The notes beneath the pieces were generated by a model. That model made no database searches, had not been told where the DNA came from, and saw only the letters and a program-made list of their open reading frames with translations. Shown here in pieces: positions 7,641 to 20,630 of a DNA stretch of 20,630 nucleotides; positions within the stretch are counted from its first letter, which is position 1; every line of letters begins with the position of its first letter. The DNA is from a virus. Location: the IMG/VR virus record IMGVR_UViG_3300013099_000111, positions 1 to 20,630 of that record; one strand, given 5' to 3'. The position numbers and the translations under genes are program-made.

Positions 7641-10600
7641 ATGGCATCAGAAATACCTAAACAGACGGACATCGAATTCGCGGCAAAAATCTTTGCTAAA
7701 GAATTCCAGAAGAGCGGTATTGGCGGTCGTTCAGCAAACATTAGTAAAATTGATACTGCTAATTCTGGCGGTGCTATTGCCTCTAGTGGTGGTGAATCCA
7801 CCGATGTTCTTGCAGATCGTAAATTAAGTAAACTTAGAAATAAACTTTTAAAAGAAAACAATAAAGCTCTTCAAGACTATTACGATATTCTACAGAACAC
7901 TACTAGCGAAGAAAAACTTTCTACCGTTCAGAAAAAGAAACTTAGAAAAATCGAAGCGAAGTTACTTAAAGATGTTGATGTTTTAGGTGATGCTTTCTCT
8001 GAAACAGCTAAAGACTTTAAGAAGGGTAAACTAAAATCCAGTGATATTAAAAAATTCATTGGTGACGACATTTCCAAACTTAGCAAGAAAGTTGCAGAAG
8101 AAATAGAAGAAGCTGGTGAGGAAATTACCGACGGTATCACTGTAGTCGGTAGAGGGATAGAAGCGGCTGCTGGATTCTTAGATAATACTGTTAGTAACTT
8201 TGCTATCAAAGCTGGTGCAACTGCCACCGTTAAAAATTTCGTAGATCAATTAGGTAGCACTTTAAAATATGGTAGCTCCGTTGTTGACACGTTCGGGAAA
8301 TCATGGGACTCATTCAAGCTAGGTATATCACCTTCAGATTTATTAGAACTAGAGGCTAAAAATAAAAGATTAGTTGCTGGTATGGGTGGTGCTGAAAAAT
8401 TTGCAGACAAACTTAACGTAATTTCAGATCGAAACTTTAAAAACTATGGGGATTTAGGTGAAGCTGTTAAAGGTAGCACACAGGTTTTAACCGCTATGTC
8501 AATCGGTGGTATTAATGCTGGTGATGCAATGTTAATGTTGCAGAAAAGCTCCACAGGTTCGAAAGGCTTAACACAAACATTTAAAGAAATACAAGCGGCT
8601 ACAGGACAAACATTCGCAGAACAAGCGGCTGCAATGGAAGAGTATGTCAAAAATGACAACATTAGAAATCGTTTAATGGGTGCAAGCAACGGGGCTGAAC
8701 GTAGAGCTGTAGTAGAACGTGGTTTGGCTAATAAACGAATGCTGGTTGGATTAGGATTAACCGCTGAACAAGCATTAAGAGCTGGGGAAGCGTTACATGG
8801 CGTAGCAGGAATGGACCCTAAAGAACGCTTAAAGGAATCTTATAAAACCCAAGCAGTTATGGAAGCTATGGGTATAGAGAACGCTGATCTGGTGGCTAAA
8901 GGGCTGCGTATGGGTGGTTTAGATAAATTAGCCCCCAAAGAACAGGCGAAAGCTATGATAGCTGTTGCTGAACTGGAACAACAACAAGCCGGAGCAAGGT
9001 CTGGCGACGCTGGCGACGTTGGTAATCTAACCACAAACGCATTATATGGGAAACTTGGAAGTCAAATACAAAGTATGGCTAATGGGTTGGGTGATATAAA
9101 CTTAGGTGATAAAGAAACTGCGGAAGCACAAATACTTAGAGATATACAGGGGCAAAATGCCGACCAAAATAGTGTATTTGCGTCGTTAGCTACAAGTGCG
9201 CTTGAATACGGTCAGATGCTTACAACAGGTTTAGCAACAAATGGTTTATTGACTGGAATAGGTGCAACATTATTATATATCACTAAACTGATGATGATGA
9301 AAGCTGGGAAACGTGGTTTATTAGCCGGACTTGGCAAAATGTTTTCCGATAAGGGTAAAGGCTTGGGTGGTCTTATAGGTAGAGCCACAGATAAAGTTGT
9401 TGGAATGGGGAAAATTGCTGCTGGTGGAATAGGAAATATAGCGACTAATGCTGGTGGGTTGGTGGGAAGAGGGGCTGGAATGGCTTCTACCGCTGGTGGT
9501 AAGGTTGCTGGAATGGCTTCTGGTGCGGTTAAAGGTGCATCATCGGTAATGAACGCTGGTGGAAAAGCTGCTGGAATGGCTTCTGGTGTTGGAAAAGCTG
9601 CTGGAATGGCTTCTGGTGCGGTTAAAGGTGCTGGAATGGCTTCTGGTGCGGTTAAAGGTGCTGGAATGGCTTCTGGTGCGGTTAAAGGTGCTGTTACTGC
9701 TAGTAGTCTTGGAAAAATGGGACTTGGTGTACTCTCTAAGGGTGCTGGTATGTTGAAATTCTTAGGACCTATAGCAACATTAGGTAGTGCAGTATTTGGA
9801 GCTGTAGAAGGATTTAACGCTGCTGGCGAACACTTTAAAGGTAAAGAATTAACCGCTGGGATGAAAGCCGCATCAACGTTTGGTGGTGCTATCTCAAGCT
9901 TAACTTTCGGACTTGTAGATGCTGGAACCGTTGCTAAGGGTGTACATGGTATGCTCGGTGGTGATGGCGGTAAAGATAAAGACGCGCAAAAATTTGTCAG
10001 TGCTAAAAAAGGTGGTAGATTTTTCAAACCTGCCCCTCAAGAAACCTCAATGAAAGATGGGAAGTTTTATACTGGGTCTGGGGAAAACAAAAAACAAATA
10101 AAAGAAGATGAATTCTTTAAAATTAGAAATAGTCTTGGAAACAGAAGCCATGCTAATTATGTGAGTGGAGCGGTTTCGTCTAGTGGTAAAGGGGAAAACC
10201 GCATGGACTTTAGTGAAACCACTAAAGGATTGATGGCTGATAGACAGAAAATAAAAGTTAAAAAAATGTCGGAAGACGATTTTAATGGAATGATGGGGGA
10301 TGCTGGTGGTGATAAAAAATTAAGACAATTTTTGATTCAAGCACGATATGGAACCCGAACAACAATTAAAAATAAGAGCAAAAACCCCAAAAGTGGTGTA
10401 ACTGCCTCCGCGTCAACACTATCACCTGCAAGTATTGGTAAAGGTAAAGGTTCCACTCCATCTGGCTATTTTGCCGCTAACGAATATGAAGATGATGACC
10501 CTAGATTTGTTAAAAAGCGTCTACAAAGCATAAGTGCCAATTACGGAAACTTTTCGAAGGGTTCAGGAGCTAACACACAATCCATCAACAAAGGCGAATA

Positions 10601-11225
10601 TCTGGGACTTAAAGATGAATGGAACGTTCGAGATAGCGCAAAGCAAATGTCTAGTGATATTTTTGGTATGGATAGACACGATAATATGGGAGATTTTTCC
10701 CAGACTAGTGACTCTGCGCAAAGAAAAGGCGGTGGTAGACGAAGAAACCGTAAAAAAATAGGTAAACATAGAAAGAATATTAAAGGTATGTCAGAAGATG
10801 ATTTTAACACAGCTATGGGCGAAGCTGGCTCTGATTCTCAACTACGTCAATTCTTAATACAGTCGAGGTTTGCCGGACAAGAAGAATCAGGAAAAGTTTC
10901 ACCTATGGGTGGAAAATCTTCAACTATTCAAGCACCTATGGGAACAGGTAAATCTTTGAATACTAGCGCAGTAAGCGGCAACAAAGGTGCTAATAGCCTT
11001 AAAAAAGATAAAGGCAGTGAACCGTCTACACTTGAAATGTTAAACGAGAACACAGTTAAACAGAATGAACTATTACAAAAAATAGTAGATTCAAACGAAA
11101 AAGGTGTAAGTGTTAATGAGAAGCAACTTAAAACTTCTGACGAAATGAAACGTAATCAAGATGCTGCGTATATGGCATCAGATGAATATCAAAGTGATTT
11201 AGCGTTTGGTAACGCAGAATTTTAA
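7641..11225 (+). CDS. Tape measure-like tail protein with internal repeats
   Basis: 1194 aa, the longest protein here and about twice T4 gp29. Residues 1-170 are Lys/Glu-rich and helical. Residues about 205-500 form a conserved-looking helical core (ISPSDLLELEAKNKRLVAGM onwards). Hydrophobic stretches at about 520-548 and 703-727 flank a Gly/Ala/Ser/Met-rich repeat region (about 600-690) with the decapeptide GMASGAVKGA in tandem. The C-terminal third is hydrophilic and holds a duplicated module, MSEDDFN..MG-AG-D--LRQFLIQ-R at residue 876 and again at 1050. Length, composition, paired hydrophobic segments and position between tail assembly genes and portal all fit a tape measure, which sets tail length and enters the host envelope on injection. 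I see no lysozyme or peptidase motif. The assignment is inferred from these traits, not from a named family. Confidence 0.72.
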   Translation: MASEIPKQTDIEFAAKIFAKEFQKSGIGGRSANISKIDTANSGGAIASSGGESTDVLADRKLSKLRNKLLKENNKALQDYYDILQNTTSEEKLSTVQKKKLRKIEAKLLKDVDVLGDAFSETAKDFKKGKLKSSDIKKFIGDDISKLSKKVAEEIEEAGEEITDGITVVGRGIEAAAGFLDNTVSNFAIKAGATATVKNFVDQLGSTLKYGSSVVDTFGKSWDSFKLGISPSDLLELEAKNKRLVAGMGGAEKFADKLNVISDRNFKNYGDLGEAVKGSTQVLTAMSIGGINAGDAMLMLQKSSTGSKGLTQTFKEIQAATGQTFAEQAAAMEEYVKNDNIRNRLMGASNGAERRAVVERGLANKRMLVGLGLTAEQALRAGEALHGVAGMDPKERLKESYKTQAVMEAMGIENADLVAKGLRMGGLDKLAPKEQAKAMIAVAELEQQQAGARSGDAGDVGNLTTNALYGKLGSQIQSMANGLGDINLGDKETAEAQILRDIQGQNADQNSVFASLATSALEYGQMLTTGLATNGLLTGIGATLLYITKLMMMKAGKRGLLAGLGKMFSDKGKGLGGLIGRATDKVVGMGKIAAGGIGNIATNAGGLVGRGAGMASTAGGKVAGMASGAVKGASSVMNAGGKAAGMASGVGKAAGMASGAVKGAGMASGAVKGAGMASGAVKGAVTASSLGKMGLGVLSKGAGMLKFLGPIATLGSAVFGAVEGFNAAGEHFKGKELTAGMKAASTFGGAISSLTFGLVDAGTVAKGVHGMLGGDGGKDKDAQKFVSAKKGGRFFKPAPQETSMKDGKFYTGSGENKKQIKEDEFFKIRNSLGNRSHANYVSGAVSSSGKGENRMDFSETTKGLMADRQKIKVKKMSEDDFNGMMGDAGGDKKLRQFLIQARYGTRTTIKNKSKNPKSGVTASASTLSPASIGKGKGSTPSGYFAANEYEDDDPRFVKKRLQSISANYGNFSKGSGANTQSINKGEYLGLKDEWNVRDSAKQMSSDIFGMDRHDNMGDFSQTSDSAQRKGGGRRRNRKKIGKHRKNIKGMSEDDFNTAMGEAGSDSQLRQFLIQSRFAGQEESGKVSPMGGKSSTIQAPMGTGKSLNTSAVSGNKGANSLKKDKGSEPSTLEMLNENTVKQNELLQKIVDSNEKGVSVNEKQLKTSDEMKRNQDAAYMASDEYQSDLAFGNAEF
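9509..9690 (+). repeat. 30-bp direct repeats coding for GMASGAVKGA decapeptides
   Basis: Three perfect head-to-tail 30-bp copies occupy 9601-9630, 9631-9660 and 9661-9690. Another 30-base copy is at 9509-9538, and partly diverged copies lie near 9475 and 9570. The unit is a multiple of three, so copy number changes keep the tape measure frame. They are all within the coding sequence. Confidence 0.9.
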
Positions 11226-13494: not shown

Positions 13495-13983
13495 ATGATA
13501 GAAGAACATGAAATGACAGCGGAAAGCTTGGTGGTAAGTAACACGCCTATAATAGATGATATAGTTGCACTAGCCCCTAAAAAAGCACGAAAAGTACGAA
13601 AAGCTAAGGTTAAACTTAAAGAAAGAACACTCGAAGAGTTTAAAAATTGGCTGGAAGGTTTAGAAGAATTTCAAGATTCGGATTGGATACCAAACGCTGA
13701 ACAATGGTCAACGATTAGGAGCAGTATAACTCTTATCAAAGAAGAAGAATACTATGATGAACCTACGGGGTATCAACCTCCACAGTCTGCACCAGTTGCG
13801 CAACATCAAACTCCACACAATCAACAAATTGTTAACAGTGTTCCAGCACCCATACAGTCGGAACCGTTATCATCATCCCAAATAGAAAATATGGTGCAAC
13901 AGGCTAAAGCAAGTTCTGGTATGGGTGATGCTGTACCAGCCAAAACGGGTGCATCCAACGGAACTGGTGACGAATTTGTTTAA
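13495..13983 (+). CDS. Phage protein with WLEGLEEFQ..DWIP..EQW motif, function unknown (162 aa)
   Basis: The N-terminal 40 residues are disordered and basic (KKARKVRKAKVKLKE). Residues about 45-80 hold a conserved-looking helical motif, LEEFKNWLEGLEEFQDSDWI followed by NAEQWSTIRSSI, which I recall from short proteins of other large phages. The remainder (about 85-160) is Gln/Pro/Ser-rich and probably disordered. The ATG at 13495 has no Shine-Dalgarno, only an AAT repeat. The ATG at 13513 has AGAAGAA in front and may be the true start (156 aa). The tail overlaps the start of the Pol III alpha-like gene. The form suggests a small adaptor binding a partner through the central helix; no activity can be read from the sequence. 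Confidence 0.6.
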   Translation: MIEEHEMTAESLVVSNTPIIDDIVALAPKKARKVRKAKVKLKERTLEEFKNWLEGLEEFQDSDWIPNAEQWSTIRSSITLIKEEEYYDEPTGYQPPQSAPVAQHQTPHNQQIVNSVPAPIQSEPLSSSQIENMVQQAKASSGMGDAVPAKTGASNGTGDEFV

Positions 13984-14518
13984 TTCCACGGTATTAGACG
14001 ATAGAACACTGTGTTACGATGGTGATTCTATCGTGGAACCTGACACCTTAATAGAATTGGTGTTAGATGGTAAACCCATAGGCGATGTTTATGTTTCTAA
14101 AATAACACCTGACATTGAAAAATATAATAACATGTTAACCAAACGCATCGAAGTTAAAACCTTTGAGAAAGAGTTGGACTTCGACTGGAACATTCCAGAA
14201 GAATATCTTAGCATCGACCTTGACAATTATGTTATCGACAAGTTTAACGAACAATCTTATAACACTACTAACGGTGAATGGGAAAAACGTTTAGCACGAG
14301 TAATGTACGAATTAACTTATTTCAATCTACCCGAACATCTGAACTTCATTAGAACATTAATATATGTTAATGATGAAATGGAAAAGAATAATATTGTTAA
14401 AGGGGTTGGACGTGGTAGCTCCGTAGCGTCATACGTTTTATACCTTATAGGAACACACCATATTGATTCTTATAAATACGGCTTAGAGTTTCATGAATTT
14501 ATAAAAATAGAGGACTAA
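13976..14518 (+). CDS. Stand-alone DNA polymerase III alpha-like domain
   Basis: 180 aa from a TTG at 13976 that follows GGTGA by five bases. The frame is open further upstream, with a GTG and an ATG at 13925/13928 as alternatives, but those would overlap the previous gene by over 50 bases. The C-terminus NIVKGVGRGSSVASYVLYLI followed by GTHHIDSYKYGLEFHEFI matches the C-family polymerase motif PxRGSSAGSLVAYALGITDIDPLxYxLxFERFL. The N-terminal part resembles short Pol III alpha-like proteins known from other T4-related phages. The protein ends before the PDFDxDF catalytic aspartates, so it cannot polymerise by itself. The setting with clamp loader genes suggests a replication-associated accessory role; what it does is unknown. 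Confidence 0.72.
   Translation: MFNSTVLDDRTLCYDGDSIVEPDTLIELVLDGKPIGDVYVSKITPDIEKYNNMLTKRIEVKTFEKELDFDWNIPEEYLSIDLDNYVIDKFNEQSYNTTNGEWEKRLARVMYELTYFNLPEHLNFIRTLIYVNDEMEKNNIVKGVGRGSSVASYVLYLIGTHHIDSYKYGLEFHEFIKIED
14471..14478 (+). promoter_or_regulatory. Possible intragenic late promoter (TATAAATA)
   Basis: An exact TATAAATA lies inside the Pol III alpha-like gene, 42 bases before the ATG at 14521. The spacing is longer than at other late boxes, so chance occurrence in AT-rich coding DNA is quite possible. Confidence 0.3.
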
Positions 14519-14520
14519 CG

Positions 14521-14802
14521 ATGCCAAAAATAGTAAGGTCAATCAAAGGTGATATGGTAGATTTTGATTTATTAAAAATCAAACAAGAAATGAAATCCGC
14601 ACCATCACCTTTAGAAGTGACAGAAAGACGTAACTACATTGATAACAAATTACAACGTAGAATTCGTAGAGCTAAAGAAGAATTACAAAAAACTGGAACC
14701 AAACCTAAAAATGGTCTAGTGGATACTTCTACACCTAAAGAAGTAGTTGATAAACCTAAAGAAACTGTTAGAAGCATTAAAAAAGGCACAACCAATGATT
14801 AA
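14521..14802 (+). CDS. Conserved small basic phage protein (93 aa), function unknown
   Basis: It starts two bases after the Pol III alpha-like gene with a good ribosome binding site, AGAGGA (14509-14514). The N-terminal half, PKIVRSIKGDMVDFDLLKIK followed by QEMKSAPSP, and a basic helix ERRNYIDNKLQRRIRRAKEE, resemble a family common in large phages (PKxVRSxKGxxVDFDLLKIKxQ). The C-terminal half is Lys/Thr/Pro-rich and probably disordered. There are no cysteines or catalytic motifs. High positive charge could mean nucleic acid binding or a role in head assembly; neither is shown. It overlaps the co-chaperonin start by eight bases, so the two are probably translated together. Confidence 0.65.
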   Translation: MPKIVRSIKGDMVDFDLLKIKQEMKSAPSPLEVTERRNYIDNKLQRRIRRAKEELQKTGTKPKNGLVDTSTPKEVVDKPKETVRSIKKGTTND

Positions 14803-15112
14803 ACCCTTACGAAATAAAATTATGTTCCAGTTCTTGTCTGATATAGATACAAGAACTTCTCTCTTCAAAGAAGAAACGGATTCTGGAATTATAGTTTTAT
14901 CAACACCTGAACATTCGACTGAATCGCCTCGTTGGGGGAAGATTACTGCGTTAGGTGTTGAAGTGTGTCCAGAAATCACGATGGATACCTATATTTTAAT
15001 CGCTCCTATGATGTGGACTGAGAAAGTTATTCACAACGATGTTGAGTTATGGCAAACAGAAGATACCCACGTTATGGCTGTATCTGACACGTTACCAGAC
15101 ACAGGATTCTAA
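14795..15112 (+). CDS. GroES / T4 gp31-like co-chaperonin
   Basis: 105 aa from the ATG at 14795 (AAAAGG upstream). A start 48 bases earlier is in frame but lies deep within the preceding gene. The layout follows GroES: N-terminal IKPLRNKIMFQF strand, a mobile-loop-like TDSGIIVLST (compare SAGGIVLTG in GroES and ESGLIIGK in gp31), then WGKITALGVEV, MDTYILIAPMMW, and a C-terminal THVMAVSD strand (like ESDILAIVE). T4 gp31 replaces host GroES on GroEL to fold the large capsid protein gp23. Here the hydrophobic IVL tripeptide that contacts GroEL is present. The gene lies in an early-type operon, so it would be ready before capsid protein is made. Family assignment is secure by pattern; which client it serves is inferred. 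Confidence 0.82.
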   Translation: MIKPLRNKIMFQFLSDIDTRTSLFKEETDSGIIVLSTPEHSTESPRWGKITALGVEVCPEITMDTYILIAPMMWTEKVIHNDVELWQTEDTHVMAVSDTLPDTGF

Positions 15113-15372
15113 TGCCTGAACTGTGTACACTATTAACCGTTAAGTATGTTGCAGACGACGACTCTGGAATGTATACAATGGGCGAAATACATGGAATACC
15201 TAAAGACGATATAAGACTGTATGTAGAATCATACGGTGCTGAACGGTTATTAAGTGTTCTAATTGATATGATACATGAAACAAAATGTGTCGATAACGAG
15301 CAAAAACTAAGAACATCTAAGCTGGAAAAACTTAACTGTGGTCTGAACGGTAGAACGGCTTGTAATATTTAG
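15112..15372 (+). CDS. Small hypothetical phage protein (86 aa)
   Basis: Its ATG shares one base with the co-chaperonin stop (TAATG), implying coupled translation. The N-terminal part PELCTLLTVKYVADDDSG is followed by a helical region (IRLYVESYGAERLLSVLIDM) and then a Lys/Asn-rich tail with three cysteines overall in the second half. No conserved motif is recognised, and the cysteine spacing does not form a clear zinc knuckle. It is the last gene before the internal late promoter at 15373. The operon position and absence of a competing frame support it being real; the function is unknown. Confidence 0.5.
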   Translation: MPELCTLLTVKYVADDDSGMYTMGEIHGIPKDDIRLYVESYGAERLLSVLIDMIHETKCVDNEQKLRTSKLEKLNCGLNGRTACNI

Positions 15373-15380
15373 TATAAATA
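15373..15380 (+). promoter_or_regulatory. T4-type late promoter (TATAAATA) for the coiled-coil membrane protein
   Basis: Exact TATAAATA directly after the TAG of the preceding gene, 21 bases before the ATG at 15402, with AAGGAG (15391-15396) as ribosome binding site. It is an internal late promoter within an otherwise early-type operon. Confidence 0.75.
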
Positions 15381-15401
15381 TACTATTTAAAAGGAGTTTT
15401 T

Positions 15402-16301
15402 ATGGTTTTCATAATACTACTAATACTTAGCGCGTTAACAATATCGGCAACTGCTGGATATTTCTCAATTTATGGTTTAGCTGCTATTTTCACAGGTTCA
15501 TTCTGGTCTATTGTTATAATGGGTTCCAGCTTAGAAGTTGGAAAATTGATGGCGGCATCTTATGTTTATAGATTCTGGGATAAGATAAATTTCTTAATGA
15601 AAACGTATCTCATTTCCGCTATAATAGTCCTAATGTTCATAACCTCTGTAGGAATTTTCGGATTTCTATCAGCATCCTATCAAGAAGATTCCATACCTTT
15701 AGCAGAAATGTCCGGTCTAGTAGATGATTATAAGATCGAACGTACAAAGCTGGAAGCGCGTAAGCAACAAATGGACAACGACATAGCCGCACTACCTAAT
15801 AACTATGTAAGTGGGCGTAAACGTCTTCAAACGATGTATAAAGACGAGTTCACTAAGATTAGAGAACGCTTAGACGTTATAAGCACCGAACTATCTAAAG
15901 TTCAAAAACAAAAAATTGTGCAGGAAAGTCACACAGGTCCAATCATTTATATAGCAAAAGTTATGAACAAAGACGTTGATAACGCTATAAAATATATGAT
16001 CTTTATGATTATGTTTGCATTTGACCCATTAGCATTGGTTCTGGTGCTGGCAACAAACTCCGCTATAAGCGATAGGAAATTACAAAAGGAACGTAAAGAA
16101 CCTATAAAATTAGAACCTGTTGTAGAAAAAGTTATAGAGGAAGTCGAAGACGAAATTGAAATTATCGAAGAAGCTGTTGAAGAAGCAGTCGAAGAGATAA
16201 AAGAATTTGTTGCTCCGATAGAAATATCCCCCGAAATAAAAGCCACTACGGAACAGGTCGCTAAACGAAAAAATCTTATGGAATCTATAAGATCGGTTTA
16301 A
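15402..16301 (+). CDS. Membrane protein with central coiled coil and acidic C-terminal tail
   Basis: 299 aa. Membrane-like stretches lie at about 2-22, 26-50, 68-92 and 196-218. Between the third and fourth is a charged coiled coil (about 105-175: YKIERTKLEARKQQMDND..., RKRLQTMYKDEF...). After the last helix comes a very acidic tail (about 228-265) with repeated VEE/IEE/AVEEAVEE units. From memory this arrangement (GLAAIF..., IMGSSLEVGKLMAASYVYRFW, then FITSVGIFGFLSASY) is conserved in many large phages with unknown function. Starting the gene with its own late promoter and the strongest ribosome binding site in the operon suggests abundant late synthesis. It could act in lysis control, DNA or assembly anchoring at the membrane, or the virion; nothing in the sequence decides. 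Confidence 0.7.
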   Translation: MVFIILLILSALTISATAGYFSIYGLAAIFTGSFWSIVIMGSSLEVGKLMAASYVYRFWDKINFLMKTYLISAIIVLMFITSVGIFGFLSASYQEDSIPLAEMSGLVDDYKIERTKLEARKQQMDNDIAALPNNYVSGRKRLQTMYKDEFTKIRERLDVISTELSKVQKQKIVQESHTGPIIYIAKVMNKDVDNAIKYMIFMIMFAFDPLALVLVLATNSAISDRKLQKERKEPIKLEPVVEKVIEEVEDEIEIIEEAVEEAVEEIKEFVAPIEISPEIKATTEQVAKRKNLMESIRSV

Positions 16302-16355
16302 TGATCTAAGAAATCGTGATACCATGACTCTTTTTACATTAAGGAGTTGTGGTTG

Positions 16356-17291
16356 ATGTCAAATTTATCGACTAAATTGTGGGTTAAGAAATACAAACCT
16401 ACTAACATTAAAGAATATATATTTCAAAACGATAAGCAGAAAAAACTAGTCGAATCTATCATAGAAGAAGATATGGTCGGTCATGCGCTGTTCTCCGGTA
16501 TTCAGGGAACAGGTAAAACTAGTTTATCTGATGTGTTGATACACGAATTGGGTGTTGCAGAATCAGACGTTAAAAGAATTAACTGTTCTGACGAAACTTC
16601 TATTGAAGTTATTCGTAACAAAGTGGTTAACTTCGTATCGTGCATCCCTGACGGTAAATACCGTGTGGTACAGTTGGAAGAGTGCGACTTCTTATCGTTT
16701 AATGCGCAAGCTTCTCTACGTGTTCTATTGGAAGATTATGTAGACCACGCTAAGTTCATTTTAACATGCAACTATATCCACAAAATAATCCCAGCGTTAA
16801 AATCCCGTTGTCAGTATCAATTCGACTTCAAAGCACCTGACAAAAAATCTACTGTTATGAGAGTTATCAAAATTCTCATGGATGAAAAAATAGAATTCGA
16901 TAAGAATTTAATCATGCCATACGTTGATGCGTGTTACCCTGATCTTCGTAAAACTATCCAAACCATCCAACAACATTGCGTTAATGGTGTTCTTCTGGAA
17001 CCATCCAGCGTCGGTGAAGGTGATGATTATAAGTTTAAAATCTTAGAATATCTGGAAAAAAATAACTGGCAAAGTATGCGCGAAATTGTATGCGCTCAGG
17101 TTTCTGATGATGAAATTGTATCGGTTTTTGAATTTCTGTATAAAAATTTAGACAAATGTAAAAAGTTCAAAGAAACGGAAGCGTGGGAACAAGGCATTGT
17201 TATGATTGCTAAGTATCTTAAAAATGATACCACCATAGCAATCAGAGAAATAAATCTTGCTGCATTGTTTATAGAATTGGGTACAATATAA
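16356..17291 (+). CDS. gp44: Clamp loader large subunit, AAA+ ATPase, T4 gp44 / RFC small subunit type
   Basis: 311 aa from the ATG at 16356 (AAGGAG nine bases upstream; a TTG at 16347 is in frame but too close to that site). The N-terminus LSTKLWVKKYKPTNIKEYIF is the RFC 'W..KYRP....D' box. Walker A is GIQGTGKT (48-55). The Walker B region reads VVQLEECD (104-111). Sensor 1 is TCN (137-139), and the SRC motif of clamp loaders is at 150-152 (LKSRCQ). Gp44 forms, with gp62, the ATPase that opens and loads the sliding clamp for replication and late transcription. One oddity: in T4 and RFC proteins the Walker B acidic pair is DE, here Glu-Glu. A gp62-like gene follows two genes downstream. Confidence 0.9.
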   Translation: MSNLSTKLWVKKYKPTNIKEYIFQNDKQKKLVESIIEEDMVGHALFSGIQGTGKTSLSDVLIHELGVAESDVKRINCSDETSIEVIRNKVVNFVSCIPDGKYRVVQLEECDFLSFNAQASLRVLLEDYVDHAKFILTCNYIHKIIPALKSRCQYQFDFKAPDKKSTVMRVIKILMDEKIEFDKNLIMPYVDACYPDLRKTIQTIQQHCVNGVLLEPSSVGEGDDYKFKILEYLEKNNWQSMREIVCAQVSDDEIVSVFEFLYKNLDKCKKFKETEAWEQGIVMIAKYLKNDTTIAIREINLAALFIELGTI

Positions 17292-17653
17292 TGTCTAAAA
17301 ATCGTGTCCCAGAAAATGAAACACAGGACGAAAAGGATAAACGTAAAGAGTGTGAAGCTCTTAACACCTTTTCATCTAAGAAAGAACGTATGGCGTGGGC
17401 TAGATTGCACGAAAAAATGACTAAGATTTTAACAACACTTGAACCTATCGAAGAAGAAATGCGCGAACTTCAAGTTAAACGTGTTGAAATCTTAGATATG
17501 ATACAAGATTTAAGAACCACAATGATAGCGAGTTGTGTCCATCCTATGCACATGCTTGTACATAACGACGATCACATATTATGTAAATTTTGTGAGAGTA
17601 AATTTTCCGTCCCGAATAAAAAGGTAACAGTCAATGGCATCAAAGGAATATAA
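17291..17653 (+). CDS. Coiled-coil plus zinc-motif phage protein (120 aa)
   Basis: Its ATG shares one base with the clamp loader stop (TAATG). Residues 10-75 are charged and helical with coiled-coil character (MTKILTTLEPIEEEMRELQV, KRVEILDMIQDL). Residues about 82-106 hold CVHPMHMLVHNDDHILCKFC, a C-x2-H... C-x2-C set consistent with one zinc site. From memory, similar coiled-coil/zinc proteins lie near clamp loader genes in other large phages, without a known function. It overlaps the gp62-like gene by 20 bases. Wedged between the two clamp loader subunits it may help DNA replication or late transcription, but this is positional inference. The Cys/His motif and overlaps make it a real gene. 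Confidence 0.62.
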   Translation: MSKNRVPENETQDEKDKRKECEALNTFSSKKERMAWARLHEKMTKILTTLEPIEEEMRELQVKRVEILDMIQDLRTTMIASCVHPMHMLVHNDDHILCKFCESKFSVPNKKVTVNGIKGI

Positions 17654-18101
17654 ATTAGATGTCTTTAAGACTCTCGAACACATAGCCAAAAAAGATTATA
17701 AGTTTTGGGATACATTAACAGACGAACAAATTAAAGGGTTTCAACCATTAGTAGTCCAGCAATGGATGTGTGGTGTTGACGACGGGTTGCAAATTTTCTT
17801 AGTAAACACCGTTGTAAACAATGCAGTGTTCCAACTATCTAACCATAAACAATTGTTATTCCAGTTAATGTGCGCGGCTTCCACCACTAAGCAACGTTGC
17901 AAATGGACAAAGAAGAAACCACTTTCTAACTTTCCTAAAGCATTAAAAGTTCTAAGCGAGTATACTGGTGATGCTAAAAAGATATGTAAAGATTATTTTT
18001 TCGCCTATACTAATGAAGAAATTGTATTAATGTGTGAAGAGTTAGGTTATCAGAAAAAGGAAATTGCTGACCTCAAAAGGGAATTGAAAAAACGTGATTA
18101 A
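17634..18101 (+). CDS. gp62: Clamp loader small subunit-like protein, T4 gp62 type
   Basis: 155 aa (T4 gp62 is 187). It has the order I associate with gp62-like proteins of T4-related phages: a start segment with FWDTLTDEQIKGFQPLVVQQ and WMCGVDDGLQIFLVNTVVNN, then HKQLLFQLMCAAS, then a basic RCKWTKKK stretch and a helical C-terminus ending KKEIADLKRELKKRD. The T4 counterpart has ...FMVENALSQF.., NYLMAA.P..KRYGKWAK. and a Lys-rich C-terminus. Gp62 has no ATPase site, which fits the absence of a Walker motif here. Together with the gp44-like subunit two genes upstream it would complete the clamp loader. The evidence is pattern resemblance plus context, so gp62 remains probable rather than certain. 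Confidence 0.62.
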   Translation: MASKEYKLDVFKTLEHIAKKDYKFWDTLTDEQIKGFQPLVVQQWMCGVDDGLQIFLVNTVVNNAVFQLSNHKQLLFQLMCAASTTKQRCKWTKKKPLSNFPKALKVLSEYTGDAKKICKDYFFAYTNEEIVLMCEELGYQKKEIADLKRELKKRD

Positions 18102-18765
18102 ACAATGTGACTACTGTTTTAAAAAATTTAAGATTGCCTCAGCGTTCGAAAAACACGCATGTAAAGAAATGAAACGTGCAAAATACGCTAAAACTATGCA
18201 AGGTAAACGAGCGTATAACTATTTCGTAACATGGGTGAAGGGTAAACATTCATCATCATATGAGCTTGACTATTTCTTAGACTCTAACTATTTTAACAGC
18301 TTTGTGCGTTTCGAAACTTATATACGTGATAGAAATATCCCATCTATAAGCGCGTTCTTGCAGTTCGTATGCTCGAAAAAGCTTACACCTAACACTTGGG
18401 ATAGTGAAATGGTTTATACGGCTTATATCGAATATTTGGACAATTCTAAACCGTTAGATAATGCTATCGCTTCGCTACAAACCTTAAACCGTTTGGCTAC
18501 TAGCTTTAATTGTAACATAAGGGAAGTCTTATATAAGTTATATCCTAACGAGTATATTCATTTGATACAGACAAGACATTTATCACCGTGGCTACTGTTG
18601 AACACTAAAGGCTTTAAAGCGTTCCTAATGTCCGACAATTTGAACCGTGAACAAACGTCTATTATAACAAGTTTGATACCAGAAAACGTCTGGTCATCTA
18701 AAATGAAGAACAATCCTGAGCAACTTACTAAAATTAAAGGATATATAGAAAAGCTTAATCTATAA
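18094..18765 (+). CDS. Zinc-finger phage protein with conserved helical domain, GTG start (223 aa)
   Basis: GTG at 18094, eight bases before the end of the gp62-like gene, with AAAGGGA upstream. Residues 5-23, CDYCFKKFKIASAFEKHAC, form a C-x2-C-x12-H-x-C finger. Then comes a helical region with FVRFETYIRDRNI, LTPNTWDSEMVYTAYIEYLD and SPWLLLNTKGFKAFL, which I recall from zinc-finger proteins of unknown function in large T4-related phages. It carries no nuclease or polymerase motif. It is the last gene of the early-type operon, and the late promoter of the tail fibre gene overlaps its stop codon. Plausible roles are nucleic acid binding during replication or late transcription (T4 uses gp33/gp55 there), but similarity to gp33 or gp55 is not seen. 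Confidence 0.6.
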   Translation: MIKQCDYCFKKFKIASAFEKHACKEMKRAKYAKTMQGKRAYNYFVTWVKGKHSSSYELDYFLDSNYFNSFVRFETYIRDRNIPSISAFLQFVCSKKLTPNTWDSEMVYTAYIEYLDNSKPLDNAIASLQTLNRLATSFNCNIREVLYKLYPNEYIHLIQTRHLSPWLLLNTKGFKAFLMSDNLNREQTSIITSLIPENVWSSKMKNNPEQLTKIKGYIEKLNL

Positions 18766-18799: not shown

Positions 18800-20467
18800 A
18801 TGGCAACTGTTTACTCTATAAATTATACAGATACTAATGAACCAGGTTTCATTATCAACCCGAATCAAATTGACGGAAGTACGGGTTCAAACTCTAACTC
18901 AAGCCTAATACTACATGGTACAGGTCGTTTAAAATATGGTGAAGCGTTAAATGAAAATTTACTTCATCTATTAGAAAACTTCGCAAGCCCTGAACGTGCT
19001 ATGCCATTAGTATCTGCAATACAAAACGCTGATAACAATGGTAGTGTTGGAACACACTTCGTAAGTTATTTCGGTGATACCACAAGCGATTTTATATCAG
19101 GTTTTATTTTCGACATTGGCGGCTCAACTGGTAGTATTAACGATGGAACATATACAACCGTTTCTAGTTCATACGATCAACCTAGCAATCTTACAACTGT
19201 TATTATTGTTGAAGCATTTCCAGACGATCAAGCGGCAACACTAGGTAATGTTGAATATACGATTGTAGAACCAGACCCATCAATGTTATTCCCTCCGTAT
19301 ACTATCGGTCAATTGTGGTTTAACAAAACTGATGATAAATTATACATCTATCGTAACGTTTCGAATACAGCTACAGATATTTTCCAATGGATTTTAGTGG
19401 GTTCCGGTAGTGCTTTCGAAAGTACACCAGAAGAACCTTTACTACCTACTGATGGTATGTTATGGTATGACACTGTTACAGATCAGTTGATGGTTTATAA
19501 TGCTGGAACATTTGATAGTGTTGCAGATCGTTATGTTTTGAAAGCTGGCGATACCATATCTTCTGAATCTGGATTAATAGGTTCGGTAGGGCATACCGAT
19601 GGTGTGTTAAGGTTTACTAATGCTGCTGGAACAAATGGGACGTTATATTTAAACGAAGGACAAGGGCAAATATCAGATGCACCAGATATTAGAGCTGATT
19701 CTGCTATGTCACAATCCTCTGGTACAAGATTTGGAATAAATTTTGATGGTGATAATACTGGAACTGATGATTTTTTTATAACAAAAGGGTCACATTTGGG
19801 TGGTTCTCAAACCGCTTTGCTGTCTGTTGAGAATGATGGTACGTTACATGTTTTTACCGCTGCTTATGAAGCACTATTAACTAACGATAATGATATACCT
19901 AATAAGAAATTTGTTGATGATGCTATCACTGATTTAACTAATTTGGTTACTAGTAATTATGTGTTGATTACTGGTGATACAATGACTGGGGCATTACAAT
20001 TAAATAATAATTCGATTACATTGGGTTCCGGTGATTCAACCATTCATGGTGAAGGTAATTTCGGTTTATTTGTCGATACTACCCCTTCTCTTGATGCTGG
20101 TGGTATATTAATAAAAACTGGTGATAATAATGGTGATGAACACGCTATCGAATTATTAAACTATTTAGGTGAGCGTAAATATTCTTTAAGAGCGACTACT
20201 GGTAATCAAGAAATATATGGCACTACACAATACACTACAGGTGCTCATTTATTTTTAGACCATCCACCAACGGGAACATTAGAAGCTGCAACAAAGGGAT
20301 ATGTTGATGCTTTAAACGGTACAGGTGGTGGTAATTTAGTCCACGCCAATCCAACGGTTCCAGTGAACGGTGACATAAAAGTTACAGGTTCAGGAGCTTC
20401 TTTAGAAATATTTATTTGGGGTAATTCGACTTGGAACAAAATATTCCCTGCACAATATACTCCATAA
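18800..20467 (+). CDS. Tail fibre / virion appendage-like protein
   Basis: 555 aa. The N-terminus (TVYSINYTDTNE.., then RLKYGEALNENLLHLLENFA) is typical of fibre-type proteins in T4-related phages. At least two copies of a fibre repeat follow: GQLWFNKTDDKLYIYRN...W (about 172-200) and GMLWYDTVTDQLMVYNAGTF (about 219-238). Further on are the fibre motifs YVLITGDTMTGALQLNN and KKFVDDAITDL, ATKGYVDALNG, with beta-rich, Gly/Asn/Thr-rich sequence throughout. Fibres recognise the host surface and usually vary at the C-terminus. No chaperone domain or peptidase site is visible at the end. The gene has an exact late promoter. The next gene begins 11 bases after the stop, so they likely share a transcript. 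Whether it is the main fibre or a neck/whisker fibre cannot be told. Confidence 0.8.
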   Translation: MATVYSINYTDTNEPGFIINPNQIDGSTGSNSNSSLILHGTGRLKYGEALNENLLHLLENFASPERAMPLVSAIQNADNNGSVGTHFVSYFGDTTSDFISGFIFDIGGSTGSINDGTYTTVSSSYDQPSNLTTVIIVEAFPDDQAATLGNVEYTIVEPDPSMLFPPYTIGQLWFNKTDDKLYIYRNVSNTATDIFQWILVGSGSAFESTPEEPLLPTDGMLWYDTVTDQLMVYNAGTFDSVADRYVLKAGDTISSESGLIGSVGHTDGVLRFTNAAGTNGTLYLNEGQGQISDAPDIRADSAMSQSSGTRFGINFDGDNTGTDDFFITKGSHLGGSQTALLSVENDGTLHVFTAAYEALLTNDNDIPNKKFVDDAITDLTNLVTSNYVLITGDTMTGALQLNNNSITLGSGDSTIHGEGNFGLFVDTTPSLDAGGILIKTGDNNGDEHAIELLNYLGERKYSLRATTGNQEIYGTTQYTTGAHLFLDHPPTGTLEAATKGYVDALNGTGGGNLVHANPTVPVNGDIKVTGSGASLEIFIWGNSTWNKIFPAQYTP

Positions 20468-20478
20468 CGGAGAATTAA

Positions 20479-20630
20479 ATGCAAGAAATGATGGTTTACC
20501 TTAAAACCACCGAAACGTGCCAGTTAAATTGTGAACATTGTTTCACGTCTGGCACTAACGGTAAAAAAGGTTGGTACGATGTAGAAGCTACAGTTGATTT
20601 TTTCCATAGACTTCACGCAATGTATCCAAA
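20479..20630 (+). CDS. Radical SAM enzyme, N-terminal part (3' end outside window)
   Basis: It starts at the ATG at 20479 (GGAGAATTAA upstream), 11 bases after the tail fibre stop, and runs off the window after about 50 codons. The sequence VYLKTTETCQLNCEHCFTSG carries the radical SAM iron-sulfur cluster motif C-x3-C-x2-C (C14, C18, C21) in the correct N-terminal position, preceded by a hydrophobic beta strand. HCF at the third cysteine and the C-Q-L-N-C form are typical of SPASM/peptide-modifying radical SAM proteins, but only the first domain is visible and its C-terminal part is unknown. The enzyme uses S-adenosylmethionine and a 4Fe-4S cluster for radical chemistry. Late co-transcription with a virion protein hints at modification of a peptide or virion component. 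Family secure; substrate unknown. Confidence 0.88.
   Translation, partial: MQEMMVYLKTTETCQLNCEHCFTSGTNGKKGWYDVEATVDFFHRLHAMYP

Follow-up and report, generated by a model that had tools for sequence, protein, structure and literature searches.

A new family of radical-SAM/SPASM enzymes next to a Cys-His-tailed protein in an apparently undescribed phage gene cassette

At the right edge of a phage contig of 20,630 nucleotides (IMG/VR record IMGVR_UViG_3300013099_000111, called the window here at its whole length) begins a gene, denominated rSAM A, that belongs to a new family of radical-SAM/SPASM enzymes, as judged from its sequence relatives. In those relatives it is accompanied by a protein ending in a Cys-His tail (the CH protein, family C1), and both lie in a widespread phage gene cassette that is apparently undescribed. 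With somewhat better than even confidence we propose that the CH protein is a dedicated, fibre-associated virion protein and that a late cassette, with rSAM A as its first enzyme, would remodel it after translation. The class of the enzyme, its partner and the constancy of both genomic arrangement and tail motif can be read directly from the sequences; viruses and some predatory bacteria probably remodel chemically the end of a host-contact protein in this way.

The radical-SAM gene at the edge of the window

The first 50 codons of rSAM A (20479..20630, plus strand) start with ATG and their frame is open at the contig end, with the last two bases after codon 50 being part of the cut-off gene. 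As the window covers the virus record of 20,630 bases from end to end, only 50 amino acids of the gene product are encoded in it, with no extension within the contig. The encoded fragment, MQEMMVYLKTTETCQLNCEHCFTSGTNGKKGWYDVEATVDFFHRLHAMYP, holds an intact CxxxCxxC motif at residues 14-21 within TCQLNCEHCF. An earlier sequence-only reading had taken this motif as the sign of a radical-SAM enzyme, and it was right: among the PHROGs, phrog_1802 (“radical SAM domain”) is hit by the fragment with E=6e-8, and 117 viral relatives exist. The match to Pfam Radical_SAM (E=0.0057) reaches 17.3 bits and stays under the cut-off of 29.5 because only 50 amino acids are present. Together these two profile matches, the viral relatives and the homologues in named phages argue against a chance occurrence of the motif.

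The gap to the preceding gene measures exactly 11 bases (20468..20478, plus strand), in agreement with the same reading, and contains a Shine-Dalgarno-like GGAGA at 20469-20473, 5 nt before the ATG, suggesting that both genes are co-transcribed. This preceding gene (18800..20467, plus strand, 555 amino acids) lies directly upstream of rSAM A and matches phrog_14394 (virion structural, E=2.9e-5) with its N-terminus; Pfam gave no match for it. Its N- and C-terminal signatures (...FPAQYTP/...FPAQYS) are those of the gene in the same position in the related loci L005, L006 and L008, and tblastn together with the C-terminal signature places such a gene there in L005, L006, L014 and L008. We consider the designation fibre-like as moderately supported.

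PHROGs for portal, tail-sheath/stabiliser and clamp-loader proteins mark the phage as contractile-tailed and T4-like. Gene maps and tblastn reveal a syntenic block at 13925..18765 (plus strand) with the gene families C23, C24, C25, C26, a gp44-like clamp loader, C27, C20 and C21. The order C23-C24-C25-C26-clamp loader-C27-C20-C21-fibre-rSAM A is the same in the window, in L005, in L006/L007 and in L014/L015, and L008 shares C20-C21-fibre-rSAM A only; the anchor genes have about 28-49% protein identity to those of the window. A complete C1 gene follows the intact rSAM A in L005, L006 and L014, and in L008 the next ORF is truncated and looks like the start of C1. Because the syntenic block anchors all these loci to the window, the CH-protein cassette is expected downstream, and judging from these relatives the phage would carry the rest of it.

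Some further genes of the window deserve mention in their own right. A 197-aa protein (13925-14518) matches part of the DNA polymerase III alpha NTPase domain (PF07733, E=5e-8); this domain is bacterial, and the protein is a short stand-alone fragment near the clamp loader. On the minus strand, 644-1321 shows by eye a GIY-YIG-like stretch (YYVKFNLYNLYKIGVT) with zinc-knuckle-like repeats, possibly of a homing endonuclease. A small protein at 14747-15112 resembles by eye a GroES/gp31-type co-chaperonin (RNKIMFQFL..GKITALG..), and its homologues in L005, L006 and L014 have about 200 amino acids. The 1194-aa protein at 7641-11225, with a repetitive GKxAGMASGxVKGA stretch around 9500-9760 and no Pfam match, is likely tail-internal.

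The rSAM A family

In IMG/VR 117 viral relatives of the fragment were confirmed with 55-80% identity, the nearest being 78-80% identical over all 50 residues. Among named phages, tblastn found rSAM A in seven records (Atu_ph07 twice, Phosso, S13, FLC6, FLC8 and DT01). Reading the complete enzyme, as had been recommended, was thus accomplished in the relatives: full-length copies comprise 345-378 amino acids counted from the aligned start, all of them with a SPASM domain. In 20 of 20 aligned full-length relatives CxxxCxxC, GGEP and the whole 7-Cys SPASM pattern (tested as C-x9-15-G-x4-C ... CxxCx5Cx3C ... C) are invariant; in the numbering of L004 the SPASM cysteines are C247-x10-G-x4-C263, C302xxC305x5C311x3C315 and C325. 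The SPASM model TIGR04085 is matched by all 20 (best E 1.4e-9), with L004 alone scoring 26.7 against a cut-off of 27, and L004 passes the cut-off of Radical_SAM PF04055 (34.4 versus 29.5 bits).

The best profile matches of all 20 relatives are peptide or protein maturases (anSME, DarE, PapB, DynA and YhhB), and sequence relatives in the PDB are anSME and other SPASM enzymes. L004 scores far under every maturase family cut-off, with 65 versus 349 bits at best. From SPASM and maturase matches with scores so far below the curated cut-offs it follows that rSAM A is a SPASM enzyme family of its own. The possibility that the gene might encode a QueE-type enzyme or an anaerobic RNR activase did not apply, since the relatives are intact, have 345-378 amino acids and show the complete 7-Cys motif; no QueE or NrdG model is found among the listed matches of rSAM A. 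The SPASM region of the window's own enzyme would, by analogy with these relatives, lie downstream of the cut.

The CH protein and its tail

The sequence-only reading had advised reading neighbouring small peptides as well, and in the relatives a candidate substrate is encoded next door. Every complete C1 protein ends in a Cys-His tail, e.g. CHSSCHSSCHSSRGRR. Downstream sequence of 3 kb or more is available for 34 distinct loci of rSAM A. An ORF with such a tail ((CHxx)2-5, usually followed by RxRR) occurs within 3.5 kb downstream in all 34 and is the next gene in 31; no further CH-tailed ORF was found among their 949 ORFs. The protein has usually 125-300 amino acids. In an alignment of 30 C1 sequences the mean column identity is 23% and the only invariant columns are C175, H176, C179, H180 and H184 of the tail, C183 being nearly so.

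Among 126 distinct tails 122 have three CHxx units (range 2-5), and 109 end with RxRR and 17 with I/L/V. The fourth residue of the units is Ser in 309 and Asn in 55 of 379 cases; part of the CH proteins came from a pattern search in which Cys, His and RxRR were prescribed, whereas the Ser/Asn positions were left free. Three CH-x-(S/N) units with RxRR behind them thus make up the C-terminus in almost all cases, in the form CHxS-CHxS-CHxS-RGRR. Cysteine outside the tail is absent in 118 of 158 CH proteins. The cultured phages Atu_ph07, Phosso, S13 and DT01 have one CH gene each, adjoining rSAM A; in S13 it is gp72, annotated as hypothetical. Some phages contain tandem CH genes (about 130 amino acids) behind collagen-like or chaperone-tipped fibres.

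Variations of this architecture were also observed. Longer tails comprise five CHxx units in L009:9096-9653 and four in L117:8105-8155. In L087, L138, L150 and L152 tandem pairs of CH-tailed proteins of about 125-140 amino acids occur, whose N-terminal domain is unlike that of the usual C1, and only the C-terminal part and the tail are shared.

AlphaFold modelling of a C1 representative (L072) gave a pLDDT of 86 and a pTM of 0.79 with low confidence for the C-terminal tail, which has the lowest values of its block in this model and is predicted to be flexible. In fold searches the N-terminal domain matched nothing in the PDB at E<=0.001 and nothing in VIA; its fold matches are viral only and include Atu_ph07 gp170 and longer phage proteins. 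A match of the CH profile to calmodulin in a PDB sequence search (E=0.01) was taken as chance.

The tail can be traced independently of the enzyme. We scanned with the nucleotide form of the tail alone (CHxxCHxxCHxx-R-x-RR-TRR). In IMG/VR this pattern hit at least 120 viral contigs, and at all 80 loci that were kept it forms the exact C-terminus of an ORF. Within the short stretches fetched, a strong rSAM A match is present in 60 of these 80 loci and rSAM A or another cassette-type radical-SAM gene in 75; for the remaining five, little sequence was fetched or the CH gene lies near its end. As the pattern holds about 43 bits by our own arithmetic, far less than one match is expected by chance, even for the 257 Gb of cellular genomes scanned. 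There, 19 stretches were found, with proper CH ORFs except for three spurious matches (Frankia, Pseudoalteromonas and Bordetella); many other cellular matches look like phage contigs inside bins and were not reckoned as cellular. Of 22 phage records, 20 contain a 30-base pattern covering three CH units, as a rule at one locus or as a tandem pair, and its reversed control was almost never found. As a negative control served Campylobacter phage CP220, which encodes 11 radical-SAM proteins (PMC2853527). It possesses neither a CH tail nor a match to the rSAM A profile, so the CH association is specific to rSAM A and not general to phages rich in radical-SAM genes.

Cassette layout and connection with the virion

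According to gene maps, which rest on simple ORF calls, the cassette in relatives has the order tail-fibre/virion gene, (cupin C6), rSAM A, C1, C4, paralogous unknowns and further radical-SAM genes. C4 has about 250 amino acids, and the paralogous unknowns (C8/C11/C12/C15, 290-390 amino acids) are present in one to three copies. Beyond rSAM A the cassette carries two to four radical-SAM genes, the second and third after the paralogous unknowns; counted by motif, loci with at least 7.9 kb from the rSAM A start contain 3-5 radical-SAM genes. Variable extras are a B12-binding radical-SAM protein (C7, KedN5-like, E=2e-25), Asp/Asn-hydroxylase-like proteins and other 2OG-oxygenase-like (2OG-Fe(II)) proteins. 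For C1, C4 and the C8 type, searches of NCBIfam, Pfam and PHROG led to PHROGs of unknown function alone and to no family with an assigned role. The predicted structure of C4 has a pLDDT of 91, and its weak fold matches (best Z 4.3 over 56 residues) were taken as uninformative. The cassette genes examined include no recognisable protease or transporter. In Burkholderia phage S13 two adjacent genes annotated as dihydrofolate reductase (gp77-gp78, L084:14394-15571) are located inside the cassette.

IMG/VR contigs come without host data. In the cultured phage Atu_ph07 most virion proteins detected by ESI-MS/MS fall in three clusters, one of them being CDS 170-215, according to PMC6102473. The CH protein of this phage is gp170, i.e. 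the boundary (first) gene of that cluster, with the gene numbering checked via gp198 (portal) and gp204 (prohead core); its C-terminal tryptic peptide is ...CHSSCHASCHNSR. In pelagimyophages radical-SAM cassettes have been located inside the host recognition cluster together with tail fibres, as stated in the relevant passages of PMC7029224. The CH protein is accordingly a putative fibre-associated virion protein and a candidate substrate of rSAM A.

Predatory bacteria

Taking one Bdellovibrionaceae genome and the phylum to which it belongs, rSAM A is present at E<=1e-50 in 18 out of 369 genomes. In the four predator loci that were read, the cassette is flanked by genes of an ordinary chromosome, which by inspection encode ribosomal protein S20, a DapF-like protein and acyl-CoA dehydrogenase; these genomes are mostly MAGs and some risk of assignment is therefore connected with the loci. 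In three of the four the protein adjoining the CH/radical-SAM cassette has a Peptidase_S74 domain, known as phage fibre chaperone. Two of these proteins (L242:9628-10917 and, on the minus strand, L244:14956-16143) carry the Pfam N_methyl prepilin motif, and in the third (L243:7655-8692, minus strand) the N-terminus is similar to N_methyl by eye. With such Peptidase_S74 and prepilin-type neighbours the CH system in predators is again found beside a fibre-like appendage. The small protein beside the predator cassette gave only 12% hhalign probability against phage fibre-tip domains. Bdellovibrio-like predators appear to use the same cassette with pilin-based fibres.

Proposed function and alternative explanations

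In the explanation that we favour, rSAM A and its partner enzymes would covalently modify the CH tail. The N-terminal domain may dock the protein and present the tail; this role is a guess, as the fold searches gave no significant PDB match. In each CHx(S/N) unit rSAM A would abstract hydrogen from certain residues and cross-link these, most plausibly to His-x-Ser/Asn three-residue cyclophanes or to Cys thioethers, and the partner enzymes would add further changes. Three-residue cyclophane-forming SPASM enzymes act on repeated H-x-(S/N) units, and the models nearest to rSAM A include YhhB and FxsB; for the tail chemistry His-centred cross-links are a possibility that we rate below even. Cys thioethers as in ranthipeptides are conceivable because of the PapB-like match and the cysteine in each unit, and we hold them for slightly less probable; other chemistry takes the remaining share. 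The product might be a hardened or metal-binding tip, positioned on the fibre or baseplate, that touches the envelope of the host; of all steps of the proposal, this role in host contact is the least certain. In its widest form, which we put forward with reserve and would not bet on, there is one broadly distributed, virus-encoded maturation pathway: a fibre-tip protein has a universal (CHxS)n-RGRR tail, which oxygenases and three to five radical-SAM enzymes rebuild covalently. It would be common to varied tailed phages (T4-like, phiKZ-like jumbo, pelagiphage-like and small ones of 30-60 kb) and Bdellovibrio-like predators, for contacting or breaching Gram-negative envelopes.

The tail could also act unmodified, as a metal-binding (Zn/Fe) tip like the metal-bound tips of tail spikes, with the radical-SAM enzymes modifying the fibre, a glycan or something else. 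The density of metal ligands in CHxxCHxxCH, the predicted flexibility of the tail and the rarity of cysteine elsewhere in CH proteins would suit such a role. Against it, however, speaks that rSAM A and the CH gene so consistently occur together and side by side (34/34 loci; 75/80 pattern loci), CP220 has other radical-SAM enzymes without any CH tail, and the strict preference for Ser/Asn at position 4 of the unit would be superfluous for metal binding; we regard this explanation as unlikely. Less likely still is a secreted RiPP, in which the large N-terminal part would only be a leader and the tail would be released from it as a small modified peptide that kills bacteria, excludes superinfection or serves as a signal. 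Clusters with several radical-SAM genes beside a Cys-rich C-terminal core do resemble RaS-RiPP loci, and the nearest maturase models include enzymes of darobactin, dynobactin and ranthipeptide formation, but the confidently predicted N-terminal fold is unlike a typical leader, the cassette genes examined gave no sign of the protease or transporter, and the locus lies in fibre and host-recognition regions, with gp170 within a virion cluster.

Modification of a virion protein or peptide, one of the functions envisaged in the sequence-only reading, is thus favoured indirectly by the SPASM class, the maturase matches and the neighbouring CH-tailed candidate in relatives. The action on host metabolites, which it had named as well, found no support. 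An auxiliary metabolic role, with metabolites or surface glycans of the infected host as targets of the cassette, would agree with the metabolic benefit proposed for the radical-SAM clusters of CP220/CPt10 (PMC2853527) and with the KedN5-like B12 radical-SAM protein and the 2OG-oxygenases, which fit small-molecule chemistry. CP220, however, lacks both the CH protein and rSAM A, whose SPASM class, peptide maturase matches and conserved CH partner point elsewhere, and we judge this highly unlikely. Lowest we rank the idea that in this particular phage rSAM A is a truncated or solitary remnant without a cassette: the window does end at codon 50 with nothing further visible, but the fragment is 78-80% identical to intact genes, its 50 codons contain no stop or frameshift, and in four syntenic relatives rSAM A is intact and has behind it either a complete CH protein gene (L005, L006, L014) or the start of a CH-like ORF (L008).

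Comparison with known systems

Peptide maturation by radical-SAM enzymes is familiar from natural-product clusters of cells. That viruses would apply it to their own particles is described nowhere in the open-access literature that was searched, where reports on phage radical-SAM enzymes and RiPPs are notes of presence without mechanism; a description in a subscription journal or preprint is possible. If our proposal is true, it explains the puzzling multi-radical-SAM cassettes in phage host-recognition regions, provides a simple marker for phage annotation (CHxS-CHxS-CHxS-RGRR at the C-terminus), links phage fibres to surface appendages of predatory bacteria and may lead to new cross-linking enzymes. 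As the substrate motif is short, specific and conserved, the idea is directly testable in cultured phages such as Sinorhizobium phage Phosso and Agrobacterium phage Atu_ph07.

Among phages, the pelagimyophage cassettes likewise lie in a fibre-rich host recognition cluster and possibly represent the same system; the relevant passages (PMC7029224) report their presence only, with no substrate, motif or mechanism. Campylobacter phages CP220/CPt10 likewise have many radical-SAM genes in a lytic T4-like phage, in clusters that include a glycine amidinotransferase (PMC2853527). The Burkholderia jumbo phages S13 and FLC6 are members of the system, with cupin gp70, radical-SAM gp71/76/79 and 2OG-oxygenases listed as accessory or of unknown function and without a proposed function (PMC11898562, PMC8066314); Ralstonia phage RSF1 is named as a relative in PMC8066314.

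The cellular SPASM maturases (anSME TIGR03942, DarE NF038005, PapB NF047865, DynA NF041298 and YhhB NF041707) have the same CxxxCxxC core and 7-Cys SPASM as rSAM A, which in contrast occurs in phages and predatory bacteria, has as its partner a CH-tailed protein behind fibre genes, and with 65.4 bits in a relative misses the anSME cut-off of 349.45. In the CXXX-repeat RiPP (TIGR04115) and His-Xaa-Ser (HxsB/HxsC, TIGR03978/TIGR03977) systems radical-SAM maturases are encoded beside targets with Cys at every fourth position or with His-x-Ser. Their cut-offs, too, are missed (27.7 versus 350 bits for the TIGR04115 maturase, 28 versus 370 for HxsB). On the side of the target, 126 distinct proteins of the relatives end in 2-5 CHxx repeats, as in a CXXX-repeat target, and the CH tail combines both repeats in C-H-x-S. 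Compared with the leader/core organisation of RiPPs, CH proteins have a core-like tail on an N-terminal domain that is predicted to be folded, and no protease or transporter is evident in the cassette genes examined. From the targets of the CXXX-repeat and Hxs systems the CH protein differs by its 125-300 amino acids, this putatively folded domain and its place beside virion genes.
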